Below, piece by piece: positions 12,640 through 22,795 of a stretch of DNA of 64,000 nt. This stretch comes from Algimonas porphyrae. GTDB lineage: Bacteria > Pseudomonadota > Alphaproteobacteria > Caulobacterales > Maricaulaceae. The stretch covers positions 1,676,001-1,740,000 of the forward strand of contig NZ_CP163424.1 in the NCBI RefSeq assembly GCF_041429795.1, in the 5' to 3' direction. A model generated the notes under the pieces. The model searched no databases. It was not told the origin of the DNA and worked only from the letters and a program-made list of their open reading frames with translations. The first letter of the stretch is position 1. Every line of letters starts with the position of its first letter. A program made the translations under genes and the position numbers.

Positions 12640-13890
<1,251 letters not shown>

Positions 13891-20497: not shown

Positions 20498-21658
20498 ATG
20501 CCAGACAGTAATTCTCCCTGGGGCCCGAAAAAGGGTTCCGGTGACAAGGGCAACTCGCCCTGGGGTAGTGGAAATAAGGGGAACGGGAAAAAGCCCGGCC
20601 CGACAGCCTCAGGCGGAGGCGACCGTTCGCCCGAACTCGACAATGTGATCGAGGGCTTCAAGACCCGTGTCCGCTCCGGCGGTCCGCGTCGTCCCAACCG
20701 TGGCGGCGGCAATGGCGGCGGCGGACAGTTTCGCATCGGCCCGTTCGGACCTCTGGGTATTGCAGCCGTCGTCGGTGCGATGCTGCTGATCTCGACCTCC
20801 GTCTATACGGTGGACCAGACGGAGCGCGCCCTGGTGCTGCGCTTTGGCGATTATGTCCGCACGGAAGGGCCGGGCCTGAAATTCAAACTGCCGAGCCCGA
20901 TCGAAACGACTTACAAGCAGGAAACCGAAATCATCCGTAAGGATGCCATTGGCGGTAATGACCTGACGTCGCTGATGTTGACGGGTGACGAGAATATCGT
21001 TGACATCAACTTCACTGTCCTGTGGCGCATCAACGATCTGGCGGATTATTATTTCGAGGTCGACGATCCCGCCAAGGCCGTCATCGCTGTGGCCGAAAGT
21101 GCCATGCGCGAGATTGTGGGCAAGAATGATCTTGAAGGGATCATCACAACGGACCGCCTGGCGATCACGACGGCTGTTCGCGATTTGATGCAGCAGACAC
21201 TCAATGAATATAAGGCCGGTGTCCGCGTTGTCGAAGTGCAGCTGCAAAAGGCCGATGCGCCGGATCAGGGCGGTGTCGTCGATGCCTTCCGCGATGTTGT
21301 CGATGCCGCGCAGGAGCGTGAGACCACGATCAACCAGGCCGTTGCCAGCCAGAACACGATCGTTCCGGAAGCGCGCGGTGTCGCCTCGCAGATCCTGCAG
21401 GACGCCGAAGCCTATCGTGACCGCGTGATCGCCGAAGCTGAAGGTGAGGCCGAGCGCTTCAACCTGATCTATCAGGAATATCGCAGAGCCCCCGTGGTGA
21501 CGCGACAGCGTATGTATCTCGAGACGATCGAGGAGGTCTATGCGCCAGCTGAGAAGATCATTCTGGATAGCGAGGCCGGATCCGGGATCGTTCCCTATCT
21601 GCCGCTCGACCAGCTCGGCAATCGCAATACGCAACGTCCTTCAACTCCACCACGCTAA
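20498..21658 (+). CDS. hflK: FtsH protease modulator HflK
   Basis: It has 386 residues. The Gly/Pro/Lys-rich cytoplasmic N-terminus starts NSPWGPKKGSGDKGNSPWGS, then one membrane helix (IGPFGPLGIAAVVGAMLLIS, about 80-105), then the SPFH/prohibitin domain (VDQTERALVLRFGDYVRTEGPG) and a long helical tail. HflK with HflC forms the large periplasmic cage around FtsH. It lies 12 bases upstream of hflC. The gene itself is intact, although its partner is interrupted. Confidence 0.95.
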   Translation: MPDSNSPWGPKKGSGDKGNSPWGSGNKGNGKKPGPTASGGGDRSPELDNVIEGFKTRVRSGGPRRPNRGGGNGGGGQFRIGPFGPLGIAAVVGAMLLISTSVYTVDQTERALVLRFGDYVRTEGPGLKFKLPSPIETTYKQETEIIRKDAIGGNDLTSLMLTGDENIVDINFTVLWRINDLADYYFEVDDPAKAVIAVAESAMREIVGKNDLEGIITTDRLAITTAVRDLMQQTLNEYKAGVRVVEVQLQKADAPDQGGVVDAFRDVVDAAQERETTINQAVASQNTIVPEARGVASQILQDAEAYRDRVIAEAEGEAERFNLIYQEYRRAPVVTRQRMYLETIEEVYAPAEKIILDSEAGSGIVPYLPLDQLGNRNTQRPSTPPR

Positions 21659-21670
21659 GGGAGGTCAGTC

Positions 21671-22567
21671 ATGAATAATTCGCGCCTCGTCATGCTCGCC
21701 GTTCTCGGCGGCCTGATCATTCTCGCCATCTTCGCCTCGCTCTTTACCGTCGAGGAACATGAACAAGCGATCGTCTTCCAGTTCGGTGAAGCTCAGCGGG
21801 TCGAAAACCCCTGGGGCGAAGAAGCCAATGCCGGCCTCAAGATCAAAACGCCATTCATCGAAAACGTCGTCTATCTGTCACGCCGCAACCTCGAAGTTGA
21901 CCTGCGCCCGGTTGAACTGCTGGCGGCGGATCAGGAACGTCTCGTCGTCGACGCCTTCGTTCGCTACCGTATTGTCAATGCGATCCGTTTCTATGAAAAA
22001 CTGCGGAACGAACGCGGCGCTCAGGATCAGTTGCAGGCCATTTTCGACTCGACATTGCGGGACGTGCTGGGTCGCGTCGACACGCCGGAGATCATTTCCG
22101 GTCGACGCTCCGAACTGATGGCCGAGATTTAGGCCGTCGCCGACCGCGTGGCGGAAGCTGAAGATCTGGGCATCGACATTATCGATGTGCGGATCAAGCG
22201 CGCCGACCTGCCACAGGAAAACTATCAGCGTGTTTTCGACCGGATGGTGTCGCAACGGACACTGGAAGCCAATCTGATCCGCGCCGAAGGCGTCGAGCGC
22301 GCCCGCGAAATCAGCGCCACGGCTGAGAAGGAAGCCACTGTGATCCGCGCCAATGCGCAGAAACAGGCCGAGATCATTCGCGGTGAGGGCGATGGCCGCC
22401 GGAATGCGATCTATGCGGCAGCCTATGAGCAAGACCCGGAATTCTTCGCCTTCTACCGGTCAATGGAGGCCTATAAGAGAGGGCTGGGGAATGGTACGAC
22501 CTATGTTCTGTCACCGGACTCCGATTTCCTCGCCTATCTGGATGATCAGGCGGGCGGTCGACGCTAG
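21671..22567 (+). pseudogene. hflC: HflC, interrupted by an in-frame amber codon
   Basis: One continuous frame encodes a full HflC of about 298 codons except for a TAG at 22130-22132 (codon 154). Before it: the membrane helix LVMLAVLGGLIILAIFASLF and the SPFH domain with VEEHEQAIVFQFGEAQRV, up to SGRRSELMAEI. After it: AVADRVAEAEDLGIDIIDVR, IKRADLPQENYQRVF, then the helical tail. The stop stands where relatives usually have Gln, so CAG to TAG is the simplest change. A GTG at 22148 could restart a 139-residue C-terminal part. A sequencing error, a pseudogene, readthrough or a split protein all fit. Confidence 0.85.
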
Positions 22568-22588
22568 CGCGTCTGCCGGACTTACACG

Positions 22589-22795
22589 ATGAGTTGGGTA
22601 ACGATCCTTCTGCTTGTCTTCGGCGGTGCTTTGGCCGTCGAAGGTCTCGGCTGGGCCGTCGCTCCTGACGGCATGCGCAATGCCTATGACGAAATGCTGC
22701 GCATGCTCGATCCGCAACGCCTGTCGATGATCGGGCTCATCTGTTTCACACTGGGTATTCTAATGATTGTTGCCGGAATCCGGATGGCTGCCTGA
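22589..22795 (+). CDS. DUF2065 family small membrane protein (YjeT-like)
   Basis: It has 68 residues with two hydrophobic helices (WVTILLLVFGGALAVEGLGW and LSMIGLICFTLGILMIVAGI) joined by a short amphipathic segment that contains the DPQRL motif. DUF2065 proteins are commonly encoded next to hflC, as here, and are thought to act with the HflKC-FtsH system, although no biochemical role is established. It lies 21 bases after hflC on the same strand and likely belongs to the same operon. Confidence 0.88.
   Translation: MSWVTILLLVFGGALAVEGLGWAVAPDGMRNAYDEMLRMLDPQRLSMIGLICFTLGILMIVAGIRMAA

Follow-up and report, generated by a model that had tools for sequence, protein, structure and literature searches.

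An in-frame amber codon within hflC of Algimonas porphyrae is most likely a nanopore basecalling error at a would-be GANTC site

We analysed a stretch of 64,000 nucleotides of the Algimonas porphyrae genome, here called the window, which is contained in one contig of 3,169,281 bases. The window carries hflK and hflC side by side, and the reading frame of hflC is interrupted by an amber codon. The features of the window which are relevant for our argument are the following.

20498..21658, forward strand: hflK, intact and adjoining hflC (TIGR01933, 264 bits, cut-off 159).
21671..22567, forward strand: hflC reading frame with one in-frame TAG, recognised by its translation, by HflC profile matches and by comparison with relatives.
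22126..22130, forward strand: GATTT, from the sequence and the codon-context counts a would-be GANTC (CcrM) site with the final base read as T.
22130..22132, forward strand: the in-frame TAG, where the seven nearest relatives have a glutamine codon (CAG or CAA); position 22130 is suspected to be miscalled.
22589..22795, forward strand: open reading frame of 68 amino acids 3′ to hflC, without NCBIfam match and named DUF2065 in the initial annotation.
12640..13824, reverse strand: ccrM-like gene for a GANTC adenine methyltransferase with a RAMA domain (NF050803 CcrM, 610 bits, under the cut-off of 830 bits).

The hflC frame comprises 299 codons and ends with a TAG at 22565-22567; the sole internal stop is codon 154. 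The piece before this stop matches positions 10-148 of the HflC model TIGR01932 with 89.8 bits, and the piece beginning at the GTG at 22148 matches positions 189-317 of 318 with 125.1 bits, each by itself below the cut-off of 134.4 bits. As deposited the frame falls short of full length, and both halves are individually recognisable as HflC. The frame is open on both sides of the stop and the pieces match consecutive parts of the model. The initial annotation is therefore borne out in its description of an otherwise intact hflC frame which is interrupted at 22130-22132 without an indel, next to an intact hflK. The break sits within the Band_7 domain match. We considered whether the genome encodes a second HflC and found two further Band_7 proteins, which at 38.5 and 22.5 bits remain far from the HflC cut-off and were rejected as copies. 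As to the 3′ end of the gene, the next small open reading frame begins 21 bases after the gene's own TAG and in the same frame (22565-22591). A readthrough fusion of both frames was rejected. The shared frame occurs in five of eight genomes, the window included and with some starts approximate; it is not conserved and we therefore take it as chance.

We then compared hflC with its homologs. The gene is readable in 15 of the 17 other genomes of the genus, and none of these copies has an internal stop. The remaining two are G008, which gives no match, and G014, in which the gene is split between two contigs. The site of the stop is occupied by CAG in six and by CAA in one of the seven nearest relatives; the eight more distant genomes of the genus have GAA or GAG. 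In the family 125 of 137 genomes, our own included, have a match to hflC which covers 277 or more of the 298 residues (counted by hand). Stops are also reported for the copies of G064, G068 and G072. Each of these is the last codon, and thus the window copy alone of the 125 has a stop in the middle of the gene.

In the part of hflC downstream of the stop we saw no relaxed selection when dN/dS was compared between the window and its relatives. The values for this C-terminal part are 0.083-0.122 for the window against five relatives (a sixth was not computable) and 0.032-0.125 for the other pairs (10 of 15 computable). For the N-terminal part, dN/dS is 0.021-0.048 between the window and the four computable relatives; the C-terminal part hence evolves faster in the window, and the relatives have the same tendency. 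As synonymous sites are near saturation, a recent event in hflC is not datable by these values. An unrelaxed downstream part is predicted by every reading except an old loss of the gene.

The sequence context of the stop suggests where it comes from. GANTC is the target site of the cell-cycle methylase CcrM. The suspect T at 22130 takes at once the last place of a would-be GANTC and the place of the first base of the glutamine codon of the nearest relatives. Judged by its sequence, the ccrM-like gene is expected to encode the enzyme which methylates this site. Methylation of GANTC serves cell-cycle control in many Alphaproteobacteria, according to the consulted parts of a study on agrobacteria (PMC12710330). 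In a first sample of 464 kb of our genome the motif is rare, with 721 GANTC sites versus 1,690 expected from base composition. In 649 open reading frames of at least 250 codons GANT precedes 64 of 11,732 CAG, CAA and CGA codons; hence about 0.5% of the codons which become a stop by a single C-to-T change have this context.

Following a first pass over 464 kb we scanned 1.244 Mb of the genome (the window and 59 further stretches, about 39%) for stops which interrupt a frame whose coding signal continues past them. This yielded 90 candidates, seven in GANT context and 83 in other contexts. Four of the seven are split genes, namely hflC and the three genes listed here.

L100:9904 (G000:C1 about 2557904), reverse strand: rpoD, split by an in-frame TAA in GATT-TAA.
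L118:18149 (G000:C1 about 2132149), forward strand: ilvE, branched-chain amino acid aminotransferase, split by a TAG in GATT-TAG.
L118:14276 (G000:C1 about 2128276), forward strand: an unnamed conserved gene with a TAG in GAGT-TAG, without NCBIfam match.

Thus all four splits found in 1.244 Mb sit directly behind GANT with T as the next base, and the stop recurs at the motif. As for the other GANT candidates, L093:18039 was rejected as a split as two different families flank the stop, and L111:8885 and L143:19073 have an ATG at most three codons away. Outside the GANT context we examined 21 of the 83 candidates with HMM libraries (one set at E = 1e-10) and found none with the same family on both sides: nine have different families, nine a family on one side only and three a family on neither side. 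L099:2890, a candidate from the first pass, has no family on either side. The equivalent error read from the reverse strand, by which a TGG before ANTC becomes TGA, occurs in none of the 90 candidates; two weak cases of this type were listed besides.

The two pieces of rpoD match positions 5-554 and 556-631 of the 631 positions of PRK05658, and sigma region 4 lies in the downstream piece. Fourteen of the 17 relatives are readable at this site and all of them have glutamine and no stop, while the other three have no RpoD or only a piece of it; two relatives (L149 and L151) retain an intact GATTCAG. The genome has a single RpoD, the next match reaching 136 bits versus a cut-off of 354 bits, and we infer that this second protein is RpoH. 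A primary sigma factor which lacks region 4 is unable to direct normal transcription. Since region 4 is needed and no other copy of RpoD was found, either the deposited rpoD sequence is wrong or its stop is read through. It is hard to believe that a cell could live with a truncated rpoD. The assembly is therefore probably wrong at this position and, as the signature is the same, in hflC as well.

In ilvE the TAG lies 27 codons short of the gene end, and the nine bases GAGATTTAG are common to the stops of ilvE and hflC. The site could be read in 11 of 17 relatives, of which ten have aspartate and one glutamine, with no stop; the nearest two relatives differ, with aspartate at 89% identity and glutamine at 88% identity. 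The unnamed gene is present in 18 of 18 genomes of the genus and its TAG lies 37 codons short of the end. Among the 11 of 17 relatives read at this site, two have glutamine, six histidine and three leucine, again with no stop, as the stops reported for G001 and G015 precede the start codon. With mostly aspartate in the one and glutamine, histidine or leucine in the other, the codon that was lost is less certain in these two genes than in hflC and rpoD.

The weight of this recurrence has to be judged with some care. We first noticed the GANT motif on hflC, and the other three splits were chosen by eye from the candidate list with the motif being sought. Only these three cases are therefore independent of hflC, and hand-picked as they are, they give a strong indication and no clean p-value. 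All three sit in a context which is held by 0.5% of the eligible codons. On the other hand, 64 codons of the type CAR or CGA behind GANT are intact in the open reading frames of at least 250 codons versus four broken ones. Since most are intact, the motif alone is no guarantee of an error.

The published record of the complete LMG 26424 genome of Algimonas porphyrae, presumably that of the window's own assembly, describes sequencing exclusively by Oxford Nanopore (R10.4.1, sup@v4.2.0, 59x) and assembly with Trycycler and Medaka; short reads are nowhere mentioned (PMC11556061). It reports 41 tRNAs and 25 pseudogenes versus 22 pseudogenes in an older draft genome of this type strain, deposited as NBRC 108216 (PMC11556061). 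A methylation-linked error presupposes a nanopore-only assembly and a basecaller which was not trained on the motif, and this is the situation found here (v4.2.0). In the parts consulted, such errors are described for other Alphaproteobacteria. In nanopore assemblies of agrobacteria GANTC is one of several motifs with SNP errors nearby, and v4.2.0 was richer in errors than methylation-aware models (PMC12710330). For Brucella assemblies two potential GANTC-linked errors are given, and only some occurrences of the error motifs are affected (PMC12392509), as in our sample. A further paper, again as far as consulted, describes nanopore ambiguities as chiefly A/G and C/T with the minimal common motif RA/TY (PMC11610573). 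A confusion of T and C in the last base of GANTC, which follows a T, is in line with these reported errors.

We suggest that the TAG of hflC results from a basecalling error which entered the consensus of an assembly built from nanopore reads alone, and from the sequence analysis we put the probability of this reading at roughly 95%. The nanopore-only assembly, the position of the base at the end of a would-be CcrM site and the same signature in three more genes including rpoD all favour it. The error could have arisen as follows. CcrM would methylate the adenines of GANTC, and the GANTC site would accordingly be methylated in this strain. In some sequence contexts the modified signal would lead the basecaller to confuse C and T at the motif end, and polishing with Medaka at 59x would have left the wrong base in place. 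The deposited base should then disagree with reads or with a second, independent assembly. The stop is real in the deposited sequence and most likely absent from the organism; the strain very probably has an uninterrupted hflC. The living cell would most likely produce a full-length ordinary HflC which assembles with HflK around FtsH. The initial annotation had listed sequencing error, recent loss, readthrough and restart without ranking them. The first is now strongly favoured. An amber suppressor (among 38 of 41 tRNAs) and a reassigned TAG find no support, and a recent loss is compatible with hflC taken by itself but leaves rpoD unexplained.

The strongest of the competing explanations is a real and very recent nonsense mutation in hflC, either of the species or of the laboratory stock, which ends HflC at residue 153 while hflK stays intact. 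Six of the seven glutamine codons in the nearest relatives are one step away from TAG, and the unrelaxed selection downstream is what a very recent change would leave behind. Furthermore, loss may be tolerated, since 10 of the 137 family genomes lack an hflK match at E = 1e-25. Six of these (G008, G038, G099, G104, G107 and G115) also have only weak hflC matches, and for five of the six the listed completeness is 90% or more, so that some members of the family may do without the HflKC system. Against a recent loss it has to be said that the mutation must have fallen by chance on the end of GANT, a position held by 64 of 11,732 such codons, and that a mutation in hflC offers no explanation for the stops with this signature in rpoD, ilvE and the fourth gene. 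We therefore regard a recent loss as improbable.

Alternatively, the genes could be truly interrupted and yield full-length proteins by decoding of UAG (UAA in rpoD), probably as glutamine. The frame is open and conserved on either side of the stop in all four genes, and glutamine stands at the site of hflC in the seven nearest relatives and at that of rpoD in 14 relatives. The decoding apparatus argues against it. The initial annotation had proposed a search for an amber suppressor; none of the 38 tRNAs found, of the 41 reported, has a CUA anticodon. A weak 39th hit is not a tRNA according to ARAGORN, and the three unread tRNAs are perhaps, as a guess, in a masked rRNA operon. Release factor RF1 is intact (473.6 bits, above the cut-off and without a stop). 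Among the ends of the 649 long open reading frames TAG occurs 246 times and TAA 127 times, counts which include false ends such as that of rpoD. A reassigned TAG is thus unsupported. Moreover, GANT also precedes putative ends of other open reading frames (seven of 649, one being the rpoD split itself), and by eye nothing obvious is common to the sequences downstream of the four stops. We consider readthrough of hflC very improbable. Just as hard to believe is the far-reaching version in which all four stops are real and UAG or UAA after GANU is read as glutamine by an unknown context-dependent readthrough, the primary sigma factor included. The least probable explanation, which we hardly credit at all, is a split gene with a restart at the in-frame GTG at 22148, 15 bases past the TAG, and two cooperating fragments: both are recognisable as HflC, but by eye no Shine-Dalgarno-like sequence precedes the GTG and the second piece would be without the N-terminal hydrophobic segment, the break lies inside the Band_7 match, and it is absent from the other 124 near full-length copies.

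A basecalling error at the would-be CcrM site thus remains our explanation, and our analysis argues against claiming a loss of hflC or amber readthrough in this species. The complete genome of the type strain probably has false stops at CcrM sites, four in about 39% of the genome and one of them in rpoD. In nanopore-only genomes of Alphaproteobacteria in-frame stops at GANTT should be distrusted before a pseudogene or recoding is called. We found no literature which treats Algimonas porphyrae together with hflC, and among the best matches listed no publication joins nanopore sequencing, CcrM, GANTC and a premature stop. The consulted parts of the two papers on GANTC errors (PMC12710330, PMC12392509) make no mention of Algimonas.

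Among known systems, the gene resembles HflC, which surrounds FtsH together with its partner HflK (TIGR01932; structures 7vhp, 7wi3 and 9cz1 from E. coli), in that both halves match the model and hflK is adjacent; unlike the HflC of TIGR01932, the deposited frame carries one in-frame TAG. From the GANTC errors known from nanopore sequencing, as the consulted parts of PMC12710330 and PMC12392509 describe them, our case differs in the kind of evidence: the errors here are deduced from broken conserved genes and not by means of short reads. In other respects the cases are alike. Each concerns a nanopore assembly of an alphaproteobacterium with a CcrM gene and a single-base difference at or next to GANTC, and the basecaller v4.2.0 is shared with the agrobacterial study (PMC12710330).
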